Both the position numbers and the translations under genes were made by a program. The notes below the pieces were generated by a model that saw only the letters and a program-made list of their open reading frames with translations, did no database searches and was not told the DNA's origin. From a virus, in the IMG/VR virus record IMGVR_UViG_3300021376_000203, positions 1-33,277 of that record: a stretch of DNA of 33,277 nt, one strand, 5' to 3'. This document shows positions 18,225 to 33,277 of the stretch, piece after piece (position 1 is the stretch's first letter; every line of letters begins with the position of its first letter).

Positions 18225-18775
18225 TGTTTTGCACCCCTAGCAGTATTATTGAGTTTTTCTATGTATAATTCAGGCACAGTTGGACAATTTTTAGCATTGG
18301 CCAACACATCCTCCAGCTTTTTATTAGCCAGTTGTTTATCCTTTTCACCTAATGCAGCATATTTATCCTGTTCAGCCTTGGTGAGTGTAGCTAACACATT
18401 TTGCACTGTGGCGTCCTTGGATTTTAACACCTCAATAAACCTTTTATTTTGCTGACGTTCGCGTTCTGCGGAATCTTTTAGTTGCTGCAGTTTAGCATCG
18501 CGTTCCTGCTTGAGTTCTTGATTTGCCAACTCCTGCTGCTTGGCTGCGGCTTCTGCCCTGGCAGTCTCCTCGGCCAGCTTTTGCTGCCAGTAGTTGTTAT
18601 TCCAGTTTGCACCCATAAAAAATACTGTGAGTGCAAATACTGGAATTGTTGAGTAGTGTACAATCTTAGCCTGTGGTATTAGTTGTGCAAAGAATCTTGT
18701 TATGAAGAATAGGATTATACAAGCTACGGCTAACAGTGGAAAAAACCAGTTTGGTATAAAGTTTAATAAAAACAT
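18221..18775 (-). CDS. Membrane-anchored coiled-coil protein, Rz-like i-spanin candidate
   Basis: A 184-residue product with two hydrophobic segments at the N-terminus (about 9-30 and 42-60), followed by a long Gln/Ala/Lys/Glu coiled coil (about 62-165) and a short tail with one Cys. A coiled coil next to an Rz1-like lipoprotein and an endolysin is the layout of Rz. Rz proteins normally have one membrane helix, so with two helices the coil would be periplasmic only if the N-terminus is outside. The start overlaps the upstream stop (TAATG). If the topology does not fit, this may be another membrane protein with the lysis role carried elsewhere. Confidence 0.65.
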   Translation of the reverse strand: MFLLNFIPNWFFPLLAVACIILFFITRFFAQLIPQAKIVHYSTIPVFALTVFFMGANWNNNYWQQKLAEETARAEAAAKQQELANQELKQERDAKLQQLKDSAERERQQNKRFIEVLKSKDATVQNVLATLTKAEQDKYAALGEKDKQLANKKLEDVLANAKNCPTVPELYIEKLNNTARGAKQ

Positions 18776-19242
18776 TATTGTACGGCCTGAATTAATTCCT
18801 CTACAGTTGTGCTAGCTGTAATTGCCAGTTCTTTAGCGTTACAGCTAGTAACAATTGCTTGACGATTGCTAGCTATATCACTGGGTATATCTACATTACG
18901 TTCAGCTTTTCTAATAACAGTCCAGTCAGTTTGCTGTAATTGCTGATTTGCACTAGCCTTAACACTAGTTATAGCTTGTTGTTTTAATTCGGCCAGATCT
19001 TTAGGTGTTGTAGCGTGCACCCAGGTTGCCACATCGTCTACAACTTCAACAGTGCTGCTAACCCAGTAATAACGCTGATCTGGCATGGGCGTATTAACAA
19101 CTTCTTGCACGCCTAGCTGTGCTAGACGTGTGCTGTCAAGTGCTATTAACCAATTAAACCCATAGTCTACGCCATCAACAAATAATTGCTGGCCAGGTTG
19201 TAGTGTATAAACTACTTGATTATTTTTTACAACTGCAAACAT
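18775..19242 (-). CDS. Tail fibre assembly-like protein, 155 aa
   Basis: The N-terminal half (about 1-78) is a beta-rich small domain. The C-terminal half is helical, with L-K-Q-Q-A-I-T-S-V-K-A-S-A-N and then T-D-W-T...S-N-R-Q-A-I. This helical plus TDWT layout resembles the C-terminus of phage tail-fibre assembly or chaperone-like proteins. It directly follows the 1968-residue fibre (three bases between them) with a strong GAGG site, the usual place for a fibre chaperone. A similar TDWT-containing protein is at 33010, at the other end of the fibre array. The family call is moderate. Confidence 0.55.
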   Translation of the reverse strand: MFAVVKNNQVVYTLQPGQQLFVDGVDYGFNWLIALDSTRLAQLGVQEVVNTPMPDQRYYWVSSTVEVVDDVATWVHATTPKDLAELKQQAITSVKASANQQLQQTDWTVIRKAERNVDIPSDIASNRQAIVTSCNAKELAITASTTVEELIQAVQ

Positions 19243-19245
19243 TTT

Positions 19246-22200
19246 TTACCTCGCTAAGCTATATTTAAATGGGTTTTCGGCAAAAGCTGCGTAAACATAA
19301 GTTTGACCACTGCTGTTCCAAGTTTGATCGGTTTGTCGTATTTTAAAACCATTGCTAAGAATATCACCAAAATTATAGTTTGTAGCTTCAGCATCAACGG
19401 CACTAGGGGATAACCGCTTATTTGCTACGTTAAAAGTATCTCTTGCAGTATCATTGATTTGCCAATTAGTAGCAGCTACACTAGATGCTTTTAATATTAT
19501 AAATTTGGGTTTGAATCCGCAATAAACAAATGGACCATCTGCACTACCATTACCAGTATAACTACCAATAGAACTGTATCCGGCAACTTCTGCAAAAATA
19601 TAACCTACCAAAAGTTCACCGTTATTATACCAGGAGGGACCTTGAGAGAATACAGTAGATGTAGGTGTTGTGTTGTTAAATGGTCCAGTTTGAGTCTGTG
19701 TGGCAGCTGTACTATTTAACATTAGCCTAACAGTGGCTCCAATTGATGCGTGATATACGTCCCAATTATATACAGCATTTCTACCACGTATAATCATAAA
19801 TTTTGGAACTGCATTTAATCCATGACCAATTGTAGCTGCACCATTATATGTCCATGTTACAATACTAAATCCAGCTGTGGTATTGGCTCTAACATTACTT
19901 TGAATAGATCCGGCAGTATTAGTTACTGTACTAGTTCCAGCATCCCAGTTCCAGGCAACATAAGACCAAGTACTACGATTAGTTTGATCTCCTGTTCCTG
20001 ATCCTACAGTAGTTGTGAAACCTGTATTAGTAGCTGCGGATACATACCCCCATTGTGGATCAGTTACGCCACCTCCAGTATTATTTTCAGCAGCAGTACT
20101 ACTAGACGATAATTTAGTGTCGGATGTAAATCCGCGAACAACATCTTGTAAAACATGGTCTTGACCAGAAGCATCTCGACGCTTAATCCATACTAAATCT
20201 GGATTGAAATTTAAGGTACTAATTGTTTGCGTACTGCCATTACCTATATAGGTTACGGCATCAAAAGCTGTATTAGATTTAACTATGCTAGGTGTAGGCA
20301 AGTTTTGTGTGCACAGTGCCTTATAGCCAGTAGGTGCACTATAGGCAAATGGGCGTTGGCCGAAATTGACCGACTGCGATCTTCCGGCTTGATAGCAGCC
20401 AAACTGCGGAAAGACAGTCTTGCCAGCCAACCCCGACGAGAATGCCACTCCTTGAGAGGCACCGTTCTTGTAGAACGTGAGCGTTCCGGCATCCATATCA
20501 AGAGCAACGCCCATTACGTCCCCGCCTGCAAACGTAGCCCCGTATGCTGGCTGGGATCCGTTGCCAACCTTGAACGCACGGCCGTCGTAGGTCCAGGAAT
20601 TTGTGTCACTCCCACCATACGCATTGTTAATTGCGTCTCGAAGTCCGACCCCGAGTTGGAAGAACATATCTCCCGACATTGTAGACTCCCAGTACCACTT
20701 GCCTGAAGAGATACCAAATGTTGCTTGTACGTTATTCCACGTTGAATTAGTAGCAGTCGTATCGAGATTGCCGTTTGTGAGCGTAGGAGCCGAACTGCTT
20801 AACCAAAGTGGATTTAGTGTACAATAATTCCCCCGCACCTCACCACCTAAACCAGTATCAGTACCATAACTGGTTGGCGTATCTACAAGGCTATCATTGC
20901 CAACACCACTAGCTACACTAAAGTTATTTGCCACCCACTGCTTGTGGCCAATGTCTCGTACAGTTGCACTAAATGTGCGAGTTGGTGGAGTAAAAGTACC
21001 TGTGTAGCGGGCGAACTTAGTAATGCGTAGGTCTTGCATATGTCCATAAGCATAATCTGGTGTACCACCAGCAGGGTTGTAGCCAATTGTTAGCGGGCAC
21101 GTTGCATTAAACAAATTTACTGAAGTAGTCGTACTTACTATTGACGTGCCATTAACAAATATTCTTGTTGTACCATTACTGCGGCAAAGAGCAAGATGAT
21201 ACCAAGTATTTACAGACATTCCAGAAGCAGCACTCATTGTTGCAGTTTGGGTTGACCCATTTGTAGACGTGTACCAGTATAAATTTCCAGAAGTAAGATA
21301 AAAAAGCCAACTAATATTGCTAGAACTTGGACCCCACATACCTACAAGAGACTGATTATTTCCAGGAGTTCCTGTCAATGCCAATGGGTAATACCATAGT
21401 TCAACTGTAAAGTCATTGGTGCTAAATAAAAATGCTTGATTTAATGGAGACGTTAAATAATCCCCGGTCCCATCAAAATACATACTACCCGTAGCATCAG
21501 TAATAGATTTTTTAGTGCTAGTTACACTACGGCTATCACCAACTGTTTCTAACACATTTTTACCACTATAGTCCACAACGCCGGCATTGTTGAAGTTTAG
21601 TAGGAGTTGTGTGTTTGCTACGGCTTGGGGTGGTTGCATTGGTGGAACAAAGTTGCTGGTGTATAGTGCGGTGCCTTTTAGTATACGAAAACTAGAAACA
21701 TAACCTGTAAGATAACTTATTGATGTCTGATAGTTTCTACCTATACTTAATGCTGCTGTAGCATTATTTAAATACGTAGATGCTGATGCAGTAGTTGCTA
21801 TAGAAATACCATTTACATATATGGTTAAATTACTACCAGATCTAACAAAAGCAATATGATTCCACTGAGATACCGGCCATTTTCCTGCTGCTGATGAAAT
21901 TTCATTTATACCAGCTTTACCAATTGCTACTCTTCCATCTGGATATATATAGCCTGTTGTATATCCGCTACTATTTGTACCTGAGTTTGAAAATATGTTA
22001 TAGCTAGATGATGCAGCTGTAGGCGTATAGGCCCAGCACTCAATTGTAAAATTTGACCCATCGCCAAAATTCCAATAAGCATTACTAGGAACATCTAAAT
22101 AATCTGTTGTACCATCAAAATAAGCACTACTGCCATGTGTGCTAGCCAAATAGTTAACACCAGTAGTAAACGTGCGGCCTAGTGGATTAAACTCTGTGCA

Positions 22201-25152
22201 GCGTGGTGTGTCATTAACAGTAATAGTAAAGTTATTAGTTGAATTATCTATAAACGTATTTGATTGACAGGTGAGAAGTGAAGTGCCTGTTACAGCTGTT
22301 AATGGTGCGGTTGGAACACTTAGCGTTGGTAATGTTGGATCATATACTGCTGTGCCTTTAACAATACGCAGATTGCTAATATAACCGCTAAAATATGTAG
22401 TACCCCAAGGATCATATCCAATATTAAGAGGTGCCGATGCACTATTAAAAATTGTTATTCCGCTAAAATTGGCAGTATTACGTCTTGTGCCGTCTACAAA
22501 TAGGGCAAAATTTGAACTACTTCTAACAGCAACTACGTGATGCCATGCGTTATCGCTCAAAGCAGGACCATTACTATCAACAAATAGTGCGGTTGAACCA
22601 TTAGTAGTATAAACAAAAATTAAAAAATTGCCTCTATCAGTACTACGAGGTCTTAAATCCCAACAAGCAGTTCCTGAACCTTGCCATCTTCCAACTATAG
22701 ACGGATAATTTGAAGAACTATCTCCGGTATATATCCATCCTTCTATAGTAAAATCCGATGCTGCTAAATCAAATGCAGCATTATAAGCTATTAAAGCAGA
22801 ATCATTGCTGCCATCAAAAAAGTTACTATAAGTTTTTGTTGTGCTAGCGTGCGATAAAAATGGTGATAGTGGTTGCGTTTGTGGTGTACCAGTAAAAGTA
22901 ACAGTGAAATTATTGCTACTGTTATCTACAAAACGATTATCTTGGCAAGTTAGTAGTACTGTACCACTAATAGCGGTTAATGGATCTGTTGAAGGAATAA
23001 AATTAGAGCTATATACTGCAGCTCCTTTTACAATTCTTAAATTACTAACGTATCTACTACAAGAAGCAACACCACCTCCAATTCTGGCAAGAGTTGGATT
23101 AGCATGGCCAAGTGTTGAGCTATTTTGTATAGTTCCTCTAGAAATACCATTTGTATATAGAGTTATTGTAGAGCCGCTTCTAACCATTGCAACATGATTC
23201 CATGTATTTGCTGTGATACCAGAAGCAAAAGTTGATGTTGGGACACCACTATTTAAATATATATTATAGTTACCTGACCCATCATAGTTTAAGGCAAGAT
23301 AAGTTGAACCGCCGCCTGTAACCCAAAGTGATGTGTCTCCGGTACCACTATATATAATAGGATACACCCAGCCTTCTACTGTAAAATTACCGGTAAATTG
23401 AAATGTAGTACTTGCAGAAGTTGTAAAACTTGGATAATTTCCACTAATATCTGATTGGTACATTGCCCAACCACTAGTACCAAACGGACTAAAACTACCT
23501 TGTGTGACATTTCCACTGCGTGTAATTACTGCGCTATTAGCGCTGTCATCAATAAACCCACTGTTATTAGCACCAACCTTATCAACTAAGGTAAGCAAAC
23601 TAACTGTACCAGTTATACTGCTAGCAGCTCCGGCACCAGTATGTCCTACTGTGGTAGTTGTTAGTGGGCTAGTGCTTGGGGTAAATGTATTTGTAACAAC
23701 AGCTTGATTTTTAATAACTCGTAAGTTACTCATGTATCCGGTAAAAGGACCGGTAGTACTATAAGAAACATCGTCTCCAATATAAAGCGTTTGAGTAGAA
23801 GAATAGTTTTGACTAGCAGGAGTATTACTATTTACTAAATTACCATTAACAAATAGTCTTACTAAACTGTTACTACGAGTTACTGCTAAATGATACCAGG
23901 TATTAGCAACTAAATTTGATGTTGCATAACTTACAGCAGCAGTACCCCAGTTACTAAGAATTAAAGTGGATCCCTGTACATAAAATGCCCAAGATGTGTC
24001 ACTACCTGTTGATATATTACCAATAAGCTGCTGATTATTAAAATTGGTAAAATAAAACCAACCTTCTACAGTATAATCAGCAGTTCCAAGAGTAAAAGCA
24101 CTATTAGCAGGTATTTGTAAATAACTACCATTGTTAAAATAGGCGCTACCACTAGTAATATCATTGCTAAAAGGCGTACGACCGCTGGTAACTACCTCTC
24201 CGCTAGCACTAAGTAAATGTGCATTACTACTACGATCACTAAAGCAATTGTAGCCGCTGCTAGCACTAGGATTACCACTTAGGTGCAGTGTAGTATAGTT
24301 GCGCAACTCGTCTACAGTTTGTGCGGTATTGACGCCTAGATTAGCGGTAGTGCTGTTATCAGTAAACGGCAGGTAAAATCCATTTGTGCCATAGCTGCCA
24401 CTATAGGCTTTGGGTTTCCATATACCAGTAGTTAGATCAGTTTCGCCAAAGCTGCTAGGTGTTAATTGTTGACCATCTATTAATTGAAAGTCAGCTAAGT
24501 AGCCACTTATATAATAACTAGGATTTGCATCTCCATCACTCTTTCTGCCAATTCTATGCGGAAATGCACTGCCACATATATATCCATCCTCATTTAGTGC
24601 AGGATACGATGCTGTAGCAAAACTTGTAACTTGTTGTCCGTTAACATAAAGCTTTAATCTATTTGTGTTAACGCTTTGTGTAGTATCATAAGCAAGAATA
24701 ATATGATACCAAGCACTAATATCACGAAATACTTGAGTAGAGGTTAGTTGTTGTGTAACTGTTACATTATTATACAGACCAGTTTCAATCTGATCACTAG
24801 CAGTAAAAATTATTGAGTGTTGATTATTTGGATTACTTCCGTTGTAAACTCCCGCAAAAAGAATACATTCACCTACACCTAGACGTGATCTCTTATACCA
24901 AAAAGATACTGTCCAAGTTTTAGTATTACCAGCTACGGGGAATGATCTGTTTAAGTAAGCACTATCTGCATTATTAAAACGCAAACTGCGACTGATAATA
25001 TAGTCCGGCAGTGGAGCAGTAGTTACAGGCCATAGCCCATCACGCTGTGCTTGATAGTGTTGTACAGGCGTCCATATACCACCAGCACTAGTGCTGGTTG
25101 GATTGTTAGTAGCACCTAAGATACCACCATTATGTTGTGGGCCTATACTCAT
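19246..25152 (-). CDS. Giant tail fibre/spike with six LamG-like domains, SPRY-like and phage C-terminal domains, 1968 aa
   Basis: Probably the main receptor-binding or adhesion protein of the tail. Order: a short N-terminal module ending G-L-W-P (1-42, shared with the 328-residue fibre); LamG/concanavalin-like sandwich domains starting near residues 59, 337, 574, 780, 1010 and 1224, each with versions of Y-x-x-G-x-x-D, F-T-V-E-G-W, W-x-H-x-A-x-x-R, L-x-V-N-G and Y-x-S-N-L-R-I-x-K; a SPRY-like sandwich (about 1450-1600); and a C-terminal region of about 350 residues (F-N-P-D-L-V-W-I-K, Y-T-G-N-G-S-A-D-G-P-F-V) that I recall from many phage fibres. LamG and SPRY folds often bind glycans or protein surfaces. 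The strong GAGGAAA site and ATGA overlap fix the start. The SPRY-like part is markedly GC-richer than the rest. Confidence 0.9.
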   Translation of the reverse strand: MSIGPQHNGGILGATNNPTSTSAGGIWTPVQHYQAQRDGLWPVTTAPLPDYIISRSLRFNNADSAYLNRSFPVAGNTKTWTVSFWYKRSRLGVGECILFAGVYNGSNPNNQHSIIFTASDQIETGLYNNVTVTQQLTSTQVFRDISAWYHIILAYDTTQSVNTNRLKLYVNGQQVTSFATASYPALNEDGYICGSAFPHRIGRKSDGDANPSYYISGYLADFQLIDGQQLTPSSFGETDLTTGIWKPKAYSGSYGTNGFYLPFTDNSTTANLGVNTAQTVDELRNYTTLHLSGNPSASSGYNCFSDRSSNAHLLSASGEVVTSGRTPFSNDITSGSAYFNNGSYLQIPANSAFTLGTADYTVEGWFYFTNFNNQQLIGNISTGSDTSWAFYVQGSTLILSNWGTAAVSYATSNLVANTWYHLAVTRSNSLVRLFVNGNLVNSNTPASQNYSSTQTLYIGDDVSYSTTGPFTGYMSNLRVIKNQAVVTNTFTPSTSPLTTTTVGHTGAGAASSITGTVSLLTLVDKVGANNSGFIDDSANSAVITRSGNVTQGSFSPFGTSGWAMYQSDISGNYPSFTTSASTTFQFTGNFTVEGWVYPIIYSGTGDTSLWVTGGGSTYLALNYDGSGNYNIYLNSGVPTSTFASGITANTWNHVAMVRSGSTITLYTNGISRGTIQNSSTLGHANPTLARIGGGVASCSRYVSNLRIVKGAAVYSSNFIPSTDPLTAISGTVLLTCQDNRFVDNSSNNFTVTFTGTPQTQPLSPFLSHASTTKTYSNFFDGSNDSALIAYNAAFDLAASDFTIEGWIYTGDSSSNYPSIVGRWQGSGTACWDLRPRSTDRGNFLIFVYTTNGSTALFVDSNGPALSDNAWHHVVAVRSSSNFALFVDGTRRNTANFSGITIFNSASAPLNIGYDPWGTTYFSGYISNLRIVKGTAVYDPTLPTLSVPTAPLTAVTGTSLLTCQSNTFIDNSTNNFTITVNDTPRCTEFNPLGRTFTTGVNYLASTHGSSAYFDGTTDYLDVPSNAYWNFGDGSNFTIECWAYTPTAASSSYNIFSNSGTNSSGYTTGYIYPDGRVAIGKAGINEISSAAGKWPVSQWNHIAFVRSGSNLTIYVNGISIATTASASTYLNNATAALSIGRNYQTSISYLTGYVSSFRILKGTALYTSNFVPPMQPPQAVANTQLLLNFNNAGVVDYSGKNVLETVGDSRSVTSTKKSITDATGSMYFDGTGDYLTSPLNQAFLFSTNDFTVELWYYPLALTGTPGNNQSLVGMWGPSSSNISWLFYLTSGNLYWYTSTNGSTQTATMSAASGMSVNTWYHLALCRSNGTTRIFVNGTSIVSTTTSVNLFNATCPLTIGYNPAGGTPDYAYGHMQDLRITKFARYTGTFTPPTRTFSATVRDIGHKQWVANNFSVASGVGNDSLVDTPTSYGTDTGLGGEVRGNYCTLNPLWLSSSAPTLTNGNLDTTATNSTWNNVQATFGISSGKWYWESTMSGDMFFQLGVGLRDAINNAYGGSDTNSWTYDGRAFKVGNGSQPAYGATFAGGDVMGVALDMDAGTLTFYKNGASQGVAFSSGLAGKTVFPQFGCYQAGRSQSVNFGQRPFAYSAPTGYKALCTQNLPTPSIVKSNTAFDAVTYIGNGSTQTISTLNFNPDLVWIKRRDASGQDHVLQDVVRGFTSDTKLSSSSTAAENNTGGGVTDPQWGYVSAATNTGFTTTVGSGTGDQTNRSTWSYVAWNWDAGTSTVTNTAGSIQSNVRANTTAGFSIVTWTYNGAATIGHGLNAVPKFMIIRGRNAVYNWDVYHASIGATVRLMLNSTAATQTQTGPFNNTTPTSTVFSQGPSWYNNGELLVGYIFAEVAGYSSIGSYTGNGSADGPFVYCGFKPKFIILKASSVAATNWQINDTARDTFNVANKRLSPSAVDAEATNYNFGDILSNGFKIRQTDQTWNSSGQTYVYAAFAENPFKYSLAR
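20380..20790. other. GC-rich island within the giant fibre gene
   Basis: Four 60-base lines counted by hand (20401-20640) have 134 of 240 G+C (56%), while a line at 19501-19560 has 22 of 60 (37%). The island maps to residues of about 1454-1590, the SPRY-like domain. The boundaries are approximate. Foreign origin of this domain is the simplest reading. Confidence 0.75.
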
Positions 25153-25514
25153 GTTGACATTTCCTCATAGCTGCAAACTGCTTCTAGTGCGCTAGCTGTG
25201 GCTGATACTAGTCTAATACTATCGGATTCTTCTAGGTAAACACCATTGTCGCCTTTACCAACTACAATTAGTGTACTGTTAGCAGGCACGCTAATTTGAT
25301 AAGCTATTCTATAACTGGTAGTTTGGGCTTTATAAACATCTACAGTAACACTAGCACTTGTAGCACTAATGTTGCTGATAATAAGTGTATTTACTTTGAA
25401 CACTTTACCACTACTAGCACTGTTACTAACAATGGCTGTAGCACTAGTAGTAACTGCTAATCCACTAGTTTTAGCGTATATATAATTTACATCTACTATA
25501 TTAGGTGCAGCCAT
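25149..25514 (-). CDS. Small beta-rich fibre-accessory protein, 121 aa (paralogue of 27134-27490)
   Basis: Starts M-A-A-P-N at 25514, with GGAGGAT just upstream; the frame is open a further four codons to a TTG, which I reject. The sequence is Ala/Ser/Thr/Val-rich and beta-like, with V-P-A-N-S-T-L-I-V-V-G-K and Y-L-E-E-S-D-S-I-R, and ends in S-Y-E-E. The same layout (M-A-A-P-N, V-P-G-N-S-S-L-V-I-L-G-K, Y-L-E-E-G-D-T-I) occurs in the 118-residue gene at 27134, so the two are paralogues. Each lies directly before a fibre with a GLWP N-terminus. I expect a small virion or fibre-capping protein; the function is unknown. Confidence 0.7.
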   Translation of the reverse strand: MAAPNIVDVNYIYAKTSGLAVTTSATAIVSNSASSGKVFKVNTLIISNISATSASVTVDVYKAQTTSYRIAYQISVPANSTLIVVGKGDNGVYLEESDSIRLVSATASALEAVCSYEEMST

Positions 25515-25515
25515 T

Positions 25516-25749
25516 TTATCCTCCAAATACTATTGCCATAGCAATAGACTTTCCTCTTGTTACACCACCTACAACTACCCATTGTGCACCATTATAAGTT
25601 TCATAGTTAGCAATAGTGCTATTATATCGTAACAGCCCAGTAACGGGACTACTAGGGCGTTCGGCGGTTGTACCACTAGGCAAGGCTAGGCCGCTAGTAC
25701 CAGCACTTGTTCCACCTATTAAGTTTGCTAAGTTTTTTGCGCGGCTCAT
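25516..25749 (-). CDS. Short tail-fibre adaptor-module protein, 77 aa
   Basis: Consists almost entirely of the adaptor module that recurs in this array: [13 protein letters not shown] (about 22-34), then L-L-R-Y-N-S-T, Y-N-G-A-Q-W. It is followed by a short hydrophobic end. Upstream of the module is a helix-like start M-S-R-A-K-N-L-A-N-L. The AGGAA site at good spacing supports the ATG at 25749. It is the first gene of the triplet that ends in the giant fibre. It may form a collar or a fibre-attachment disc; this is inference. Confidence 0.7.
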   Translation of the reverse strand: MSRAKNLANLIGGTSAGTSGLALPSGTTAERPSSPVTGLLRYNSTIANYETYNGAQWVVVGGVTRGKSIAMAIVFGG

Positions 25750-25760
25750 CTATGTTCCTG

Positions 25761-26144
25761 TTATGGTTGATTGGTTACTTCTAGCCAACTGGTAGTGGCC
25801 TCATCCCAGCGGTATTGTTTGCCATCAGCTGGCATGGGTGTTGGAGGATCCCATAGGCAAGTTGTCTGATTAAGATTCCAGCTTAGATAGGGTTTAGGCG
25901 GTACAAAACAATCATTGGTGCTATCATAGCTGTAACCAATGCCTGCATAGTTTTTACGCAGTGCCTTAGTTTGATCTAGGCTAGGCTGATTGGTTTGTGG
26001 ATCATAGTGTATGCCGCCGCGTGTGTTGTAGCTAGTTTGAATCCACTGACCTGGACTAGTATCAACAAATGTGTTAAAAAATTCTGGTTCTGCAACAATT
26101 ACCTGCGTTACTAAACCGTTGACTACTTTTGCAAAATGTGCCAT
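25761..26144 (-). CDS. Conserved phage fibre-region protein, 127 aa
   Basis: Begins M-A-H-F-A-K-V-V-N-G-L-V-T-Q-V-I-V-A, then W-I-Q-T-S-Y-N-T, then R-K-N-Y-A-G-I-G-Y-S-Y-D, and ends with a Trp/Pro-rich segment (P-K-P-Y-L-S-W, C-L-W-D-P-P-T-P-M-P, Y-R-W-D-E). I recall this pattern from many marine phages, in or near fibre genes, without a known function. The gene stands between the two copies of the fibre triplet. Two Cys are present. There is no signal peptide, so it is probably a structural accessory protein. Confidence 0.7.
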   Translation of the reverse strand: MAHFAKVVNGLVTQVIVAEPEFFNTFVDTSPGQWIQTSYNTRGGIHYDPQTNQPSLDQTKALRKNYAGIGYSYDSTNDCFVPPKPYLSWNLNQTTCLWDPPTPMPADGKQYRWDEATTSWLEVTNQP

Positions 26145-26150
26145 ATTATG

Positions 26151-27137
26151 TTAACCTGTATATGTAAATGTTCCGGTTGTTGTAAAAGTATGATAAGTAT
26201 ATCCACCGGCAGAACTAACTGTACCGCCTGTTCCTCGTTGGCTACCACTATATCTAATAATTACTATACCACTACCACCTGTACCTCCAGCAGCACTCCG
26301 TCCAGCTCCTTGACCACCGCCACCGCCACCAGTATTAGCACCACCATTTCCAGGATTACCACCGTTATATCCGCTACTACTACCACTACTACCTAGGCCG
26401 TTACCACCACCGCCTGTACCACCAGCTGGATCACCTGTGGCGGCACCACCTTTACCACCACCTCCTCCACCAGCATAGTAACTACCATTCAGCCATTGTT
26501 TACCTGCACCACCTTGTCCAGGTGTAGTAGCATCATCACTTGTAAATCCTGCTTGATTAGCTCCACCACCGCCGGCACCATTTCTATTAGTATTTCCACC
26601 TTTAGTACCGCCGCTATTACCTTGGCCACTAGTAGCTGAACCAACTGTAGGGGTTCCTGTTGTCGAACTATCTCCACCTAATCCGCCGCTACTACCGCCG
26701 CTTCCAGAAGTGAGTATTTCATCACCGCCCCCACCTCCACCGCCTATAGCAGTAGCAGATAATGTAGTACCTATTAATGAACTAGGGCTACCGTTTGTAC
26801 CACTAACCGAGGTATTCCAACCCCCGCTAGCACCACCTGCACCACCTGCACCAATAATTATACTATAGTTTGCACCAGGAAGTATAAAACCATCGCTAGC
26901 TATATAACCTCCAGCACCACCACCACCACCACCACCTCCATAACCATTTTGACTTTCAGAACCTCCACCACCTCCACCACCAGCTACTATTAAATATTCA
27001 ATAGCATAAGTAGGTTTAGGCCATAATCCGGCACCTTGATATTGTTGAACATCTACTAAAGTATTAATGCCTGGTGCAGTTACTAGGGATATAGGATTGC
27101 GTGGGCCTATTACTCCACCATTAGTACGTTGTCTCAT
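26151..27137 (-). CDS. Glycine-rich tail fibre with GLWP N-terminus, 328 aa
   Basis: The N-terminal module (G-G-V-I-G-P...D-V-Q-Q-Y-Q-G-A-G-L-W-P, about 7-41) is shared with the giant fibre. After Y-L-I-V-A-G-G-G-G-G-G-G comes a long Gly/Ser/Ala-rich domain (about 50-285). The end is the C-terminal module shared with the two other Gly-rich fibres (I-V-I-I-R-Y-S-G-S-Q-R-G-T-G-G-T-V...Y-T-Y-H-T-F-T). Polyglycine fibre domains of T4-like tails often form the variable receptor-binding tips. The ATG at 27137 overlaps the upstream stop by ATGA. Confidence 0.8.
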   Translation of the reverse strand: MRQRTNGGVIGPRNPISLVTAPGINTLVDVQQYQGAGLWPKPTYAIEYLIVAGGGGGGGSESQNGYGGGGGGGGAGGYIASDGFILPGANYSIIIGAGGAGGASGGWNTSVSGTNGSPSSLIGTTLSATAIGGGGGGGDEILTSGSGGSSGGLGGDSSTTGTPTVGSATSGQGNSGGTKGGNTNRNGAGGGGANQAGFTSDDATTPGQGGAGKQWLNGSYYAGGGGGGKGGAATGDPAGGTGGGGNGLGSSGSSSGYNGGNPGNGGANTGGGGGGQGAGRSAAGGTGGSGIVIIRYSGSQRGTGGTVSSAGGYTYHTFTTTGTFTYTG

Positions 27138-27490
27138 TGTATAAGCTCGTAACTAATTATAATATGTAACGCACTGGTAGTACCGGCAAATGCTTGTATA
27201 GTATCACCTTCTTCTAGGTATATTGGTGTATCTTTGCCCAATATTACTAATGAACTATTACCTGGTACATTAATAGTACCTGCTAAATAATAACTAGTAG
27301 CGCTTCTAAGTACTGTAACGGTTGTAGTAGCTACAGTAGCAGTATAATTAGCAACCACAATACTATTAATCTTATAAGCCTGATTACTACTACTGGCATT
27401 AACTAATACATTAGCTGCACTTGTTGTTAGTGCTTGTAGTGCAGTTTTGCCTGTAGCTGTTGTAAATGAAATTAAATTAGGAGCTGCCAT
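27134..27490 (-). CDS. Small beta-rich fibre-accessory protein, 118 aa (paralogue of 25149-25514)
   Basis: Starts M-A-A-P-N at 27490 with GGAAC upstream; an in-frame start at 27520 overlaps the previous gene and is rejected. Thr/Ala/Val-rich beta-like sequence, with a Y-L-E-E-G-D-T-I motif near the end that matches Y-L-E-E-S-D-S-I in its paralogue. It directly precedes the 328-residue fibre, as its paralogue precedes the giant fibre. Probably part of the fibre attachment or tip; no known family. Confidence 0.7.
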   Translation of the reverse strand: MAAPNLISFTTATGKTALQALTTSAANVLVNASSSNQAYKINSIVVANYTATVATTTVTVLRSATSYYLAGTINVPGNSSLVILGKDTPIYLEEGDTIQAFAGTTSALHIIISYELIQ

Positions 27491-27491
27491 A

Positions 27492-27689
27492 TTATGTTCC
27501 AAATATTGAATTATAGCCAAAAGTTAGTGCTCTATCGCTTAATATAGCCCATTTTGTACCGGTGTATACTTCTATTAAACCCAGTGTACTATTAAAACCC
27601 ATTTGCCCAGCACTAGGATTGCTAGGACGAGTAGCTGTGGTCCAGGTTGGTTGAGTTACACCAGCTGATCCGTCTAATGTTAATGCCAT
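27492..27689 (-). CDS. Short tail-fibre adaptor-module protein, 65 aa
   Basis: A minimal version of the adaptor module: T-A-T-R-P-S-N-P-S-A-G-Q-M-G-F-N-S-T-L-G, E-V-Y-T-G-T-K-W, and an end S-I-F-G-T that matches the end (I-R-F-G-T) of the 56-residue gene at 32010. The start at 27689 has AGGAT at good spacing and an upstream context identical to that of the 28804 gene. It is the first gene of the triplet that ends in the 328-residue fibre. Confidence 0.7.
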   Translation of the reverse strand: MALTLDGSAGVTQPTWTTATRPSNPSAGQMGFNSTLGLIEVYTGTKWAILSDRALTFGYNSIFGT

Positions 27690-27712
27690 GTTTTATCCTA
27701 TGCTGTAAATGT
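27685..27712 (-). repeat. 28-bp gene-junction repeat, copy 1
   Basis: Identical to 28800-28827. Spans the start codon and ribosome binding site of the 65-residue gene and the stop and last codons of the 368-residue fibre. Confidence 0.95.
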
Positions 27713-28804
27713 TCCACTGGTAGTAAATGTATGATAAGTATAGCCGCCTGCTGAGGTAACAGTACCGCCAGTACCGCGTTGGCTACCTAAATAACGTACT
27801 ATTACAACACCACTGCCCCCTTGTCCAGCTTGATCAGTAGGTGCTGTGCTAGGGGCATTATAGTGACTTCCGCCGCCACCTCCTCCACGATTAACTAGTC
27901 CATTATATCCATATGCTCCAGGATTACCTGTAGTACCAGAACTACCGGCAGCACCAGCACCACCTACACCACTACCACCTGTACCTCCTGGATAAGAGTA
28001 ATATTGAATATTTCCACCGCCACCGCCGGCATAATAAGTACCAGAACCAGTAGGCCATTCAATACCTATACCACCATTACCACCTGCTGTTGCATTAGAG
28101 CTAACGCTGCCGCCAATACCCCCTGCACCACCACCGCCTGCAGCAGGATAACTAGTATTGCTTCCATCATTTCCACCGCCTCCGGCATAACCTTGTCCAG
28201 TAGTACCAGCTCCACCTGCTCCACCATTTCGCGATGTACCTCCACCACTTCCGCCAGCTAAACCGCTAAGGCTAGATGTTGCTTCGTATCCCCCGCCACC
28301 ACCGCCTATAGCAACATATGTAGCAGTAAAAGAAGAATTGCTGCCATTAGTACCTCTAGCTCCGCCTGATCCAGGATAGGAACCATATTGTGTAACTCCT
28401 CCTGCACCTATAGTTATATTATAGCTAATAGCTGTTGTTATTAAAGATCCGGTAACTACTCCACCTCCACCGCCTCCACCTCCACTGTGTCGACCACCAC
28501 CACCACCACCAGCAACTACTAAATATTCTAGTGTATATTGACCTAATTTAACTGTAATCCAGTTATTTGTCATATAGGCTTCAATACCGCCAATAGTCGT
28601 ATTATATCGCATATAACCATTTACTGGATTTGTTGGTCTTTGAGCCGTTGTACCACTAGGTAAGCCAAAAGCTCCGGTATTATTGCTGGTGGTAACCAAT
28701 CCACTGGTAGCCTGCAGCTCAAGTGTACCCGACGTATCCGCCGTATAAACTATACCAGTTTGGCCACTGGCAACGCCGTCATCTGCTTTAATTATGCTTG
28801 CCAT
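27698..28804 (-). CDS. Glycine-rich tail fibre, 368 aa
   Basis: Opens with a helix- and strand-rich N-terminus (M-A-S-I-I-K-A-D-D-G-V-A-S) followed by the adaptor module (L-P-S-G-T-T-A-Q-R-P, M-R-Y-N-T-T, about 49-90). Then comes Y-L-V-V-A-G-G-G-G-G-G and about 220 residues dominated by Gly, Ser and Ala with scattered Tyr, ending in the shared C-terminal module (V-V-I-V-R-Y-L-G-S-Q-R-G-T-G-G-T-V). It is expected to be an elongated fibre. The start at 28804 and the stop at 27698 both lie inside copies of an identical 28-base junction sequence. Confidence 0.8.
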   Translation of the reverse strand: MASIIKADDGVASGQTGIVYTADTSGTLELQATSGLVTTSNNTGAFGLPSGTTAQRPTNPVNGYMRYNTTIGGIEAYMTNNWITVKLGQYTLEYLVVAGGGGGGRHSGGGGGGGGVVTGSLITTAISYNITIGAGGVTQYGSYPGSGGARGTNGSNSSFTATYVAIGGGGGGYEATSSLSGLAGGSGGGTSRNGGAGGAGTTGQGYAGGGGNDGSNTSYPAAGGGGAGGIGGSVSSNATAGGNGGIGIEWPTGSGTYYAGGGGGNIQYYSYPGGTGGSGVGGAGAAGSSGTTGNPGAYGYNGLVNRGGGGGGSHYNAPSTAPTDQAGQGGSGVVIVRYLGSQRGTGGTVTSAGGYTYHTFTTSGTFTA

Positions 28805-28827
28805 GTTTTATCCTATGCTGTAAATGT
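28800..28827 (-). repeat. 28-bp gene-junction repeat, copy 2
   Basis: Identical to 27685-27712. Spans the start of the 368-residue fibre and the stop of the 344-residue fibre, so the whole 368-residue gene lies between the two copies. Confidence 0.95.
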
Positions 28828-29847
28828 GCCTGAACTGGTAAATGTATGTATAGTATAGCCATTATAGCTTGTAACAGTGCCACCAGTGCCGCGTTGAGAT
28901 CCAGGATAGCGTATTAATACAATTCCGCTGCCGCCATTACCACCAATACCAGCTGCAGACCCAAATGTACCGGCACCAGCACCGTCCCCACCACTCCCCG
29001 TATTTGCAGAAGCTGCCTGAGTTCCTGTCCATCCGTCGCCGCCGCCTCTACCACCAGCAGCATATGTAACAGCACTACTGCTTAACCAAGTATTTAATAT
29101 GCCAGCGCCACCATTAGTAAAGCTCGAGCCGTTACTAATCCCGTTTGAGCCTGAACCTCCTGCTCCCCCTCCACCACCGCCAGTACCACTATTTGATGCT
29201 GGCATATATCCGGCACCACCAGCGTTTCCTTGACCTGATGTTCCAGATCCACCATTGCTCGCATACGAATAGCCGGTTCCTCCACCACCGCTGCCACCAC
29301 TAGCACCAGCAGCTGTACCATTTGATGCATTGTAATTACCGCCGCCACCTCCACCAACAGCGTTTAATATAGTAGAGCCCAATAGAGCAACAGTAGTATT
29401 AGATCCACTACCAGATGGACTTGCACTAGTTGCTGTACTGGCAGTACCTGCACCACCAATAGTTATTACATATTGTGAAGATTTTGAAACAGTTAAATTA
29501 TTTTGTAAAACACCTCCTGCTCCTCCACCCCCTCCAACATCAAAACCACCAGCACCGCCACCGGCTACTACTAGATATTCAATACTATAATTCCCAAACT
29601 GTTCGCCAACAGCTTTCCACTCAGTACCAGTATATACTTCAAGTACATTATCAGTAGTATTATATCTGGTCATACCCACAGCCGGTGTACTAGGACGCTC
29701 AGCAGTTGTTCCTACTGGTGTAGTTAGTGCACCTGTACCATTTACTTTTACAATGCCACCAGCAGCTTCAAGATTAAGCTGCCCAGTTGTATCGCTGGTG
29801 TAAGTTAGGCCAGTTGTCGTTGTATTACCTGCACGAATTGTACTCAT
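28813..29847 (-). CDS. Glycine-rich tail fibre, 344 aa
   Basis: N-terminal module (M-S-T-I-R-A-G-N-T-T-T-T-G, then L-E-A-A-G-G-I), the adaptor module ([13 protein letters not shown]...M-T-R-Y-N-T-T, E-V-Y-T-G-T-E-W, about 42-80), then Y-L-V-V-A-G-G-G-A-G-G and a long Gly/Ser/Ala-rich domain (about 90-300). It ends in the shared C-terminal module (I-V-L-I-R-Y-P-G-S-Q-R-G-T-G-G-T-V). It is similar in plan to the 368-residue fibre downstream. Recombination between the two is plausible. The ATG at 29847 follows the upstream gene by one base. Confidence 0.8.
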   Translation of the reverse strand: MSTIRAGNTTTTGLTYTSDTTGQLNLEAAGGIVKVNGTGALTTPVGTTAERPSTPAVGMTRYNTTDNVLEVYTGTEWKAVGEQFGNYSIEYLVVAGGGAGGFDVGGGGGAGGVLQNNLTVSKSSQYVITIGGAGTASTATSASPSGSGSNTTVALLGSTILNAVGGGGGGNYNASNGTAAGASGGSGGGGTGYSYASNGGSGTSGQGNAGGAGYMPASNSGTGGGGGGAGGSGSNGISNGSSFTNGGAGILNTWLSSSAVTYAAGGRGGGDGWTGTQAASANTGSGGDGAGAGTFGSAAGIGGNGGSGIVLIRYPGSQRGTGGTVTSYNGYTIHTFTSSGTFTA

Positions 29848-29848
29848 A

Positions 29849-30874
29849 TTAAATTACCACCCAACGTTGATTGCTTGGCAGGCTTACGACCACACCGCTG
29901 TTAATAACCACAGGTCCTAGGCTAAAACCGTTGTGTCCGCTAGGAAATGTATAGCTTTCGTCTATTGTAGTACGATTGACTATAATACCACCACCTGCTT
30001 TTGCACCTGCTGTACTAACTACAGTGGCTAGTTGGTATGCTAAGATTTCTACTGAGTCGCCTAGTGAAGCGGCTTGGGTAAATATTACTGTAGTGCCATT
30101 TGTTGCTGTATAGTCATCGCCGCCGCCTACAAGCTTAATACCATTTTGATATACATCTACATAGCCTACTGTATAACCACCACTAGCAGTAAAAGTAGTT
30201 TGATTGCTGGTAGCTGTTATAGTAGTAACTGTACGTGTTGTGCTGCCAGTTAAATTTGCGGCTACATTGCCTGGTACCCAGTTGCTAGTAGTGCTGTTCC
30301 AAATTAAGCCTTGACCGTTTGAGGGTGCACTAGTAGCTGTGTCTACATCACTTAGTGCGTTTATGCTGGTTGAGCTTAGCAGCGTAGTTACTCGTGTGTT
30401 TGTATAGTAGAGATTTGTTGAACCCTCTGTGACACTATCAGTACTGCTAGGACTAGCTACAATCTCCACATAGGCGCTGCCCGACCAGCGATAGACTTTG
30501 TTGTTGTCAAGTGTTAGGTATAGTTTACCGGTTTCGCCACTAACAGGTAATGCGGCTTGATTAGCATATTCTAGCACATCGTCAACATAACTAGGCAGTT
30601 GACTGGCGGGTACTTTACCACTACCGTCTAGGCTAGCATAACCATTTGCTTGCGCTTTATTACTACTATTCTCAGGCGTATAGCCTAGTGCAGTAGTAAC
30701 ATTGCTGCTGGTTATGCCGGTTAGATAACTACTAGTATCTAAAGTATACGCATTTGCTCCGGTTTTCTTTAATAGTCCCACAGTGTCTGGCAGTGCTGCA
30801 ATTGCACTAAGGTCGCCGTCTAGTAATAGGCCCGTATTTGATACACTGCGTGCTAGTGAAACGGCTTTGGTCAT
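29849..30874 (-). CDS. Tail fibre with fibre-shaft repeats, 341 aa
   Basis: Typical phage fibre sequence: K-V-P-A-S-Q-L-P-S-Y-V-D-D-V-L-E-Y-A, then G-E-T-G-K-L-Y-L-T-L-D-N-N-K-V-Y-R-W-S-G-S-A-Y-V-E-I, a Thr/Ser-rich coiled section (N-L-Y-Y-T-N-T-R-V), a beta module Y-T-V-G-Y-V-D-V-Y-Q-N-G-I-K-L, and a C-terminal Y-T-F-P-S-G-H-N-G-F-S-L-G-P-V-V-I domain ending in R-W-V-V-I. These segments are common in cyanophage and pelagiphage fibres. A strong GAGGAA site precedes the ATG at 30874. It has no adaptor module, unlike most of its neighbours. Confidence 0.85.
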   Translation of the reverse strand: MTKAVSLARSVSNTGLLLDGDLSAIAALPDTVGLLKKTGANAYTLDTSSYLTGITSSNVTTALGYTPENSSNKAQANGYASLDGSGKVPASQLPSYVDDVLEYANQAALPVSGETGKLYLTLDNNKVYRWSGSAYVEIVASPSSTDSVTEGSTNLYYTNTRVTTLLSSTSINALSDVDTATSAPSNGQGLIWNSTTSNWVPGNVAANLTGSTTRTVTTITATSNQTTFTASGGYTVGYVDVYQNGIKLVGGGDDYTATNGTTVIFTQAASLGDSVEILAYQLATVVSTAGAKAGGGIIVNRTTIDESYTFPSGHNGFSLGPVVINSGVVVSLPSNQRWVVI

Positions 30875-30887
30875 ATTTTTTCCTCAA

Positions 30888-31017
30888 TTAATATACTAGT
30901 ACTATTCGGCCATTTTCGCCATTTGATCCACCATATGCGCTTACACCTATTCCAGCAGCATAATAAGATAAACCTGTATTTGGAGGGCTATAGGTTCCAC
31001 TACTTCCGCCACCTTTA
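30888..31017 (-). pseudogene. Out-of-frame C-terminal extension of the DUF2341/PA14 fibre
   Basis: Immediately past the stop of the 331-residue fibre (31015-31017), the alternative frame runs to a stop at 30888-30890 and reads Q-Y-K-G-G-G-S-S-G-T-Y, then Y-Y-A-A-G-I-G, G-E-N-G-R-I-V-L-V-Y. This Gly-rich end and the R-I-V-L-V-Y strand look like real fibre sequence. It stops 13 bases before the next start, the spacing normal for this operon. A +1 (or -2) shift near 31020 would join it to the fibre. This could be a genuine frameshift, a mutation or a sequence error. Confidence 0.5.
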
Positions 31018-32010
31018 TACTGAACTTTCAGCACCAACTGTCCCACTATGTGCATAAGGATTGGTATATCCTGTTCCATATTTTGCATGATATGCTGGAC
31101 CTGGAGGACTTGTATATCCTGCTCCTGGCCATGCAAAATCAAATAGGGCTGTAGCACCACCTGCATTTTCATACCATTCGTTTAATACTTGAATTGGCGT
31201 GCCAGAAACTATACCTCCAGCAGTTCCCGTATATGTAGTTGGACCTTGATCTTTCCACGTGTCTATGCGATTTGTCCATGAGTCTGAGCTAAGTGCTCTT
31301 GAATAGGTTCTTGCACCATCGTCAGTTGTAACTCTAAATGTCATAGTTCCTGTGCTTAAAGGTATTACCCACGCATCCCATTGAATTGAAAGACTATCTG
31401 CTCTACTCCCCTGCCCCATGACTTGGCATGTTCCACTACCCCAAGTATAATAAGGACCATTTGTGTCCGCAACGTAAAAGTCAAAAGTATTAAATCCAGT
31501 TCCACCATAATATAAACATCTCCATCCGGATGCTAGTGTAGATGTTATACTGCTTATTGCTGATGCATTTGCATTTCTATAACGCATGTATATTGTTGTT
31601 GTAGCTGAAGTTGGAACTTTAACCCATATAATTGAAGTGCCTGCGGAATTCCAACTTTCTATCCAATGGTTAAATGACGATGTGTTTGGATCAAATCCAG
31701 ACGTTGCGCCAAATCTTAAATCACTACCATCCGCATTAGTGTTTGTATAACTAAAATTAGCTGTTGTTAGTTGAATTCTAACTTGCCAATCTGTTCCTGG
31801 AGTTGATGTTATTGTAATAGGCCTTTGTAATGACCAAGCTGGGCTAGCCACGGTGGACCACAAAGTTCCATTATACACTTCAGCACCATTTATGGTTGTA
31901 TTCCACCTTACCATGCCAGTAGACGGACTTGCAGGTCTTTGAGCAGTTGTTCCTACAGGAACTTGTAAAAATCCTGTATCATTTATTGTTGTATTTTTAA
32001 GTGTCGCCAT
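31015..32010 (-). CDS. Tail fibre with adaptor, DUF2341-like and PA14-like domains, 331 aa
   Basis: The adaptor module (about 10-48: V-P-V-G-T-T-A-Q-R-P, M-V-R-W-N-T-T, E-V-Y-N-G-T-L-W) is followed by a DUF2341-like sandwich (about 50-140: R-P-I-T-I-T, W-I-E-S-W-N-S-A-G-T-S-I-I-W-V-K-V). A PA14-like beta-barrel comes next (about 155-300: W-R-C-L-Y-Y-G-G-T-G-F, M-T-F-R-V-T-T-D-D-G-A-R). PA14 domains often bind carbohydrates, so this is a candidate receptor-binding tip. The true start is M-A-T-L-K at 32010, which overlaps the upstream TAA (TAATG) and has GGAAC before it; the longer frame to 32031 is rejected. The product appears truncated by a frameshift. Confidence 0.8.
   Translation of the reverse strand: MATLKNTTINDTGFLQVPVGTTAQRPASPSTGMVRWNTTINGAEVYNGTLWSTVASPAWSLQRPITITSTPGTDWQVRIQLTTANFSYTNTNADGSDLRFGATSGFDPNTSSFNHWIESWNSAGTSIIWVKVPTSATTTIYMRYRNANASAISSITSTLASGWRCLYYGGTGFNTFDFYVADTNGPYYTWGSGTCQVMGQGSRADSLSIQWDAWVIPLSTGTMTFRVTTDDGARTYSRALSSDSWTNRIDTWKDQGPTTYTGTAGGIVSGTPIQVLNEWYENAGGATALFDFAWPGAGYTSPPGPAYHAKYGTGYTNPYAHSGTVGAESSV
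31933..32009 (-). repeat. 77-bp direct repeat, copy 1
   Basis: Matches 32103-32179 at 76 of 77 positions, with a period of 170 bases. Encodes the N-terminus of the DUF2341/PA14-like fibre. Confidence 0.95.
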
Positions 32011-32180
32011 TATGTTCCAAATCTTATCCAAAAATTTCCATCGTAAATTTCCAGATAACCTAAGGTAGTATTAAAACGCCACATTCCGAGCGTAGGACTG
32101 GAAGGTCTTTGAGCAGTTGTTCCTGCAGGAACTTGTAAAAATCCTGTATCATTTATTGTTGTATTTTTAAGTGTCGCCAC
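32010..32180 (-). CDS. Stand-alone adaptor-module protein, GTG start, 56 aa
   Basis: Reads (M)-A-T-L-K-N-T-T-I-N-D-T-G-F-L-Q-V-P, then A-G-T-T-A-Q-R-P-S-S-P, M-W-R-F-N-T-T, E-I-Y-D-G-N-F-W, and ends I-R-F-G-T before TAA (32012-32010). The start is GTG at 32180, with AGAGGTGA upstream and the preceding stop (32183) next to it. Its first 26 codons are almost identical at DNA level to those of the following fibre, so it is a tandem duplicate of that fibre's N-terminus. It is too short and atypical for routine gene calling. A small attachment or decoy adaptor is possible. Confidence 0.7.
   Translation of the reverse strand: MATLKNTTINDTGFLQVPAGTTAQRPSSPTLGMWRFNTTLGYLEIYDGNFWIRFGT
32103..32179 (-). 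repeat. 77-bp direct repeat, copy 2
   Basis: Second copy of the repeat at 31933-32009, differing by one base (G for A). Encodes the N-terminus of the 56-residue stand-alone adaptor. Confidence 0.95.
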
Positions 32181-32182
32181 TA

Positions 32183-32992
32183 TTACTCACCTCTTAGCAG
32201 TTTGAGTTGAACTATTTCTTCTTTAAGTGATTTGATTGCTTCTAATAGATACACACTGAGTTTAGTATAATTAATACCCGATGGCTTACCATCCTCATAG
32301 CTTACTATGTTAGGTAATACACGATCTACTTCTTCAGCAATGAGTCCAGGTTCGTTCTGTCTAGATCCATCCTTACGATCATATGTGTAAGCCTGCAAAT
32401 GAGAAATAATATCTAATACATTAGTAATCGGGCTGAGGTTTTCTTTTAATGTAATACTAGAACTCTCTGTTAAAGATACTACGGTTAACAGTCCGGTACT
32501 GGCGTTATAGGTTAGCTTTGTTGTACTAACTTTAGGTGTTTGATTACTTCCTACTGCTGCTACAAATACAGGGTATACTGTGGTATTAGTGGTTGTATCA
32601 TCTGTGGCATTAACTGCTGTGCTTGGTCCAGTGGCTCCAGCAGCTCCTTGTGGTCCAGCAGCTCCTTGTGGTCCAGTAGCTCCGGTAGCTCCTTGTGGTC
32701 CAGTAGCTCCGGTAGCTCCGGTAGCTCCTTGTGGTCCAGTTGCACCTTGTGGCCCTTGTGGTCCAGTTGCACCTTGTGGCCCTTGGGGGCCTTGTGCCCC
32801 AAAACTACCCCAACCTGCGTTATTATAAACCTCAGTAAATCCAGTTGTACTATTATACCTAACCAGCCCAACCTCACCACTAGGGCGCTCAGCAGTTGTG
32901 CCGACTGGTACTTTTAGTGCAGCTGTACCGGCTATAGTAACTACACCAGTGCTAGCTGGTGTTAGCTTGCTAATTGATCGGGCTTTTGACAT
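32183..32992 (-). CDS. Collagen-like tail fibre with S74-type intramolecular chaperone, 269 aa
   Basis: N-terminal adaptor module ([27 protein letters not shown], about 28-64), then about 20 uninterrupted Gly-x-y triplets (GPQ, GAT, GAA; about 67-126) that should form a collagen-like triple helix. A Thr/Val-rich head follows, and the C-terminus carries a Peptidase_S74-like chaperone ([27 protein letters not shown]). S74 domains trimerise the fibre and then cut themselves off before a Ser, using a nearby Lys. The usual S-D pair appears here as S-S. The strong TGAGGAAA site precedes the ATG at 32992. Confidence 0.88.
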
Positions 32993-33009
32993 GTTGTTTC
33001 CTCAGAAAT

Positions 33010-33277
33010 TTATTGCCACTGATTTGCTGGAAGCTGAGGCCAAACTATTATAGTTTGTGGGTTTATAGCTATTTGTCGTAGCTGATCTCTATATGCCTGA
33101 AACTCTTGCTTGTTAACCAAACTTACATCTGCTAGCTGTGTCCAGTCTGTGGCTGCTAGCAGTTGTTTAGCTGTATTTTTATTTTGCAGTTTTATAGACT
33201 GGTCTATGTTATCCAACTCTTCTTGTGTTAAGCTAACAACACTAACAGCATAAACAACACCAGCTTCTAGGTATGGC
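33010..33277 (-). CDS. Tail fibre assembly-like protein (5'-partial)
   Basis: The frame is open from the stop at 33010 to the window edge, so the gene starts outside; a TTG at 33216 is only an internal codon. Visible residues read P-Y-L-E-A-G-V-V-Y-A-V-S-V-V-S-L-T, then a Gln/Lys-rich helix, T-D-W-T-Q-L-A-D-V, a charged helix with Q-E-F-Q-A-Y-R-D-Q-L-R, and an end with W-P-Q-L-P-A-N-Q-W. This layout is known from small phage proteins that act in fibre or tail assembly. It precedes the whole fibre array, and the 155-residue gene with a similar TDWT segment follows the array. Confidence 0.65.
   Translation of the reverse strand, partial: PYLEAGVVYAVSVVSLTQEELDNIDQSIKLQNKNTAKQLLAATDWTQLADVSLVNKQEFQAYRDQLRQIAINPQTIIVWPQLPANQWQ

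Follow-up and report, generated by a model that had tools for sequence, protein, structure and literature searches.

The window, by which we mean the whole stretch of 33,277 bases that was analysed, is a linear virus record. When compared with phage genomes, its first 25 kb had no close match. Positions 19,246-33,276 form a single minus-strand fibre operon that is tightly packed, with intergenic gaps of -4 to 17 nt and one exception of 140 nt. Beyond this operon lie a tail-fibre-assembly match (18775-19242) and then spanin-like genes and an endolysin. After the lysis genes, two large proteins of 832 and 512 aa are encoded (13288-17321, minus strand); neither has a Pfam match, and only the second matches a PHROG family, which is of unknown function. 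Seven neighbouring fibre genes (a to g) have in common a module of about 45 residues, which stands behind a leader of varying type. The features are as follows.

32183-32992, minus strand: gene a (269 aa), leader beginning MSKARS, module core at 32795-32965, collagen-like stalk, S74 intramolecular chaperone
32010-32180, minus strand: gene b (56 aa), stand-alone, GTG start, class I leader ATLKNTTINDTGFL and module core at 32013-32177
31015-32010, minus strand: gene c (331 aa), class I leader as in b, module core at 31843-32010, DUF2341, weak PA14
29849-30874, minus strand: protein of 341 aa that does not contain the module
28813-29847, minus strand: gene d (344 aa), class II leader, module core at 29599-29754, glycine-rich domain
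27698-28804, minus strand: gene e (368 aa), class II leader, module core at 28550-28696, glycine-rich domain
27492-27689, minus strand: gene f (65 aa), stand-alone, class III leader (TLDGSAGVT..WTTATRP), module core at 27534-27689, short tail
27134-27493, minus strand: MAAPN protein (120 aa)
25761-26144, minus strand: companion gene of the phrog_7759 family (127 aa)
25516-25749, minus strand: gene g (77 aa), stand-alone, leader MSRAKNLANL, module core at 25564-25731, short tail
25149-25511, minus strand: second MAAPN protein (120 aa)
19246-25152, minus strand: protein of 1968 aa with six laminin-G-like stretches, SPRY and a C-terminal DUF7483

Gene a starts at 32992, which corrects the earlier note, and its collagen-like repeats follow directly after the module. 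The start of gene c and the stop of gene b overlap by 1 nt. The 140-nt gap, the one large gap in the operon, lies behind gene c and is filled by a fibre-like C-terminal tail in another frame (30888-31172, minus strand, ending in SYYAAGIGVSAYGGSNGENGRIVLVY); because of this tail, gene c is perhaps frameshifted, and a frameshift or sequencing error at its C-terminal end is possible. The last 49 residues of the 341-aa protein (ending in NGFSLGPVVINSGVVVSLPSNQRWVVI) reappear at other loci immediately ahead of module genes.

All seven module copies are present on the minus strand in the genes for which the earlier note had proposed them, and its division into four long genes (269, 331, 344 and 368 aa) and three short genes (56, 65 and 77 aa) is right. 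An HMM built from 96 sequences, none of them from the window, was run against all 420 open frames of the window and recovers exactly these seven copies, with E from 8e-30 to 3e-18. The next match had an E of 0.18, and the best match among reversed frames, which served as a control, had an E of 0.43. The residues P, TTA, RP, G, N, T, E, Y and W are unchanged across the seven copies, and each pairwise score among the copies exceeds 300 shuffles. The proposed pattern G-TTA[E/Q]-RP holds as a motif of the array except in copy f, which reads W-TTAT-RP. The copies have diverged, with 18-34 identical residues per pair, save for b and c (37 of 51). At their 5' ends, b and c are identical at 85 of 89 bases and diverge thereafter, a near-identity that, judged from the bases, is due to a recent duplication or conversion. 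The module is covered by no Pfam or NCBIfam model, and no paper came up when the literature was searched by text for one form of the motif.

A profile search of the PDB with the module matched the ends of two tailspikes, namely Gp49 of podophage B2 (residues 370-406 of 410, E 1.5e-6, the best sequence match; PDB 9d83; PMC11654681) and TSP3 of CBA120 (residues 582-623, E 0.0024; PDB 5w6f, 6nw9; PMC6517402). The same two C-terminal ends were found from a single relative sequence of another phage. Kelch-like designed proteins that head the profile lists were rejected, as six weak repeat matches are summed in them and they are not relatives. In the predicted monomer structure of b (pLDDT 94.3), the leader is extended and is followed, after a turn, by strands at residues 34-37, 42-46 and 51-53, that is, by a three-stranded antiparallel sheet after an extended linker. 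When this model was compared with the PDB by Foldseek, three TSP3 chains came out on top, with a probability of 1.00 and an rmsd of 0.8-1.1 A across 39-40 columns; E for these chains is only 0.016-0.041 because the domain is tiny.

The C-terminal part of TSP3 is a beta-prism II trimer of three-stranded sheets whose core is lined by Asn, Trp and Pro, and this subdomain ranks among the smallest of its kind (PMC6517402). The invariant Pro and Trp of the module fit these core residues. Both tailspikes, however, have Asp where the module has its invariant Asn, so that the core Asn of TSP3 probably corresponds to a different position. Since homology extends across the whole module, sequence and predicted model identify it as a three-stranded beta-prism subdomain like D4 of TSP3, and thus as an already known fold. 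Among predicted viral structures, the same fold occurs in fibre proteins of cyanophages and uncultured phages, one of them with collagen repeats. The trimerization domains of collagen XV and XVIII are likewise small trimerising units with a similar predicted fold (TM ~0.5); however, with E of 2.5-9 and no sequence match, they are an analogy only. The TSP3 authors liken D4 to the architecture of snowdrop lectin (PMC6517402), which might suggest a lectin-like sugar-binding domain, but that comparison covers architecture only and the module usually lies at the base of the fibre and not at the tip; we consider sugar binding highly improbable.

The likeness to TSP3 D4 thus comprises the whole-module sequence, the three-stranded sheet, a size of ~40 residues and a deviation of ~1 A. 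However, D4 is a C-terminal cap after a catalytic beta-helix, and the matching part of B2 Gp49, an esterase tailspike from a different phage family, is C-terminal as well, whereas the module is N-terminal or stand-alone in seven of seven window genes. The module is therefore a homologous domain placed elsewhere and not a tailspike cap. Because its relatives cap trimeric tailspikes at the C-terminal end, the motif is, from homology and predicted fold, best read as a trimer clamp rather than as a docking site. Collagen-like repeats require three chains in register, and the module of gene a, directly before such repeats, therefore fits a clamp that would align three chains. A general link between module and collagen stalk was rejected, with collagen repeats following the module in 2 of 174 long module genes.

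The earlier note had called for a profile from the seven copies and a search for its distribution and fused domains, and the outcome bears out that such arrays are common and that the fused distal domains are diverse. With the module as seed, we gathered 80 viral loci, to which further fetched loci were added. Among 193 unique occurrences, the module is N-terminal in 124, N-proximal in 18, internal in 28 and C-terminal in 2, while 17 are stand-alone and 4 are cut; these proportions are indicative only because the sample was seeded with the window's own pattern. Loci with three to six module copies are common, and fibre arrays of this type are widespread in aquatic phages; carriers include a podovirus whose portal is P22-like as well as myoviruses of the Kyanoviridae. 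The module occurs in many PHROG families of unknown function, frequently around residues 35-80. Five PHROG families (1325, 2803, 25721, 24138 and 20787) contain the module near residues 25-82. Family 20787 is annotated as 'virion structural protein', and the other four have no assigned function. One of the module-bearing PHROG families is a virion structural protein of 67 residues. A known array of similar layout is the cyanomyovirus cluster T4-GC 347/349/350 (P-SSM4, Syn19, S-SM1), which also has runs of module genes with stand-alone next to long ones; its leaders and distal domains are different, and these phages are T4-like myoviruses. In S-SM1, genes SSM1_045 and SSM1_046 are short copies.

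That a single module stands at the head of fibres whose distal domains differ is borne out; what finds no support is the proposal that the module itself is the docking site on the tail and that a single site accepts all seven proteins. This proposal agrees with the 124 N-terminal cases, with the commonness of arrays and with a weak Foldseek likeness of the b model to a baseplate-anchor/assembly fragment of TSP4 (T4 gp10 / TSP4 XD2-XD3; E 0.43-1.1, no sequence match). However, the solved relatives TSP3 and B2 Gp49 have the domain at the C-terminal end, carriers differ in tail type, and a docking domain would always be tail-proximal, which the 28 internal and 2 C-terminal cases are not. Furthermore, about four types can be told apart within the window in the part ahead of the module (identity 0.94 for b/c, 0.45 for d/e and 0.13-0.44 for all remaining pairs), which disfavours one common site. 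We thus regard docking by the module as unlikely. The variable N-terminal leader is the likelier docking candidate, and what had been called an adaptor is better divided into leader and clamp.

The leader is not of several types in every array, as in locus L008 all six module genes carry one leader type, compared to about four in the window. Among class I members from several genomes, mean identity is 0.69 for the leader, a figure biased upward because the class was chosen by its leader, 0.52 for the core and 0.28 for the distal part; the distal domains that follow this leader include glycine-rich, DUF2341/PA14 and laminin-G-like ones. With controls, similarity within genomes is raised everywhere (z of 7.9 for the leader, 6.0 for variable core columns and 6.5 for the distal part), so that tandem duplication accounts for much of it. 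A clean split between a genome-specific leader and a generic module was weakened by these controls and dropped as a general result.

Apart from the window, at least ten genomes, unrelated ones among them, have stand-alone copies. Most end 1-6 residues past the last invariant Trp, whereas f and g have short tails. P-SSM4 and Syn19 have the distal domain at the orthologous cyanophage position T4-GC 349, but S-SM1 lacks it there. In relatives (L032/L068), the short copies differ at 7 nonsynonymous and 31 synonymous codons (dN 0.06, dS 0.77); b and its counterpart in L008 differ at 17 nonsynonymous and 24 synonymous codons, with dS saturated. Where testable, that is, in these relatives and in b, the codons thus indicate purifying selection. 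Because the short copies are recurrent, mostly share an endpoint, often stand beside long fibres and appear constrained, they are, in agreement with the earlier note, real, conserved proteins and not debris. The same observations bear on another reading, in which duplication spread the module chiefly as an inert spacer or a landing pad for recombination and left the short copies as leftovers. The 5' identity of b and c, the common 3' ends of the glycine-rich genes and the raised similarity in all parts of the genes would fit, but the constraint on the relatives' short copies and their mostly identical domain boundary across unrelated genomes make it very unlikely.

Short and long module genes adjoin or overlap in about ten loci, often with similar leaders, and b and c overlap. 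Short copies might therefore enter mixed trimers with the product of the adjacent long fibre gene and fix the number of complete fibres per virion. However, adjacency is partly expected because the arrays are dense, and the core identity of such pairs is not above that of strangers (0.56 for b/c, with a between-genome mean of 0.50), so that we judge this distinctly unlikely. The broader idea that stand-alone clamps regulate fibre display, either by mixed trimers with the neighbouring full-length fibre or by competing with it for sites, and so tune the number of each fibre, is doubtful, if conceivable.

Two further gene families neighbour the module genes. The MAAPN proteins are 42% identical to each other, and each lies directly after a short module gene (f or g) and ahead of a fibre with a GGxxG N-terminus. 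They are predicted to form a beta jelly-roll, with a model pLDDT of 93.5, and the model weakly resembles several oligomeric proteins, among them a trimeric phage cement protein. Relatives are numerous in viral contigs, and most of these loci have no adjoining module gene; a fixed cassette of short module gene, MAAPN protein and fibre, seen twice in the window, is thus not general. The phrog_7759 protein is ~69% identical to its relatives and is encoded in 40 of the 80 module loci, which makes it a candidate common partner of module fibres.

We consider it probable, though well short of certain, that each long protein consists of a leader, a beta-prism trimer clamp and an exchangeable distal domain, and that the short proteins are leader and clamp, kept as probable pegs or plugs. 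The clamp would comprise the extended GTTAxRP segment and the three-stranded sheet, and three such sheets would be arranged about a threefold axis like those of the CBA120 TSP3 cap, here at the opposite end of the protein behind a short N-terminal leader. By homology with trimeric tailspikes, the clamp would keep three chains in register, while the leader, as the likeliest attachment peptide, would attach the fibre. The distal parts (collagen-like with S74, glycine-rich, DUF2341/PA14) may serve as stalk or in host binding, as their Pfam domain types suggest. The short proteins would form trimers that have no fibre, probably as small pegs or plugs at fibre sites, with caps or mixed-trimer partners as alternative roles.

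Our results provide a structural identity for a motif of many aquatic phage proteins of unknown function, and suggest that one clamp serves at either end of fibres. They turn hypothetical short genes into testable candidate virion components. If short copies indeed occupy or share fibre sites, they would offer a means of balancing several receptor-binding proteins. A clamp at the base of interchangeable fibres would help to account for aquatic phages that carry several different fibres.
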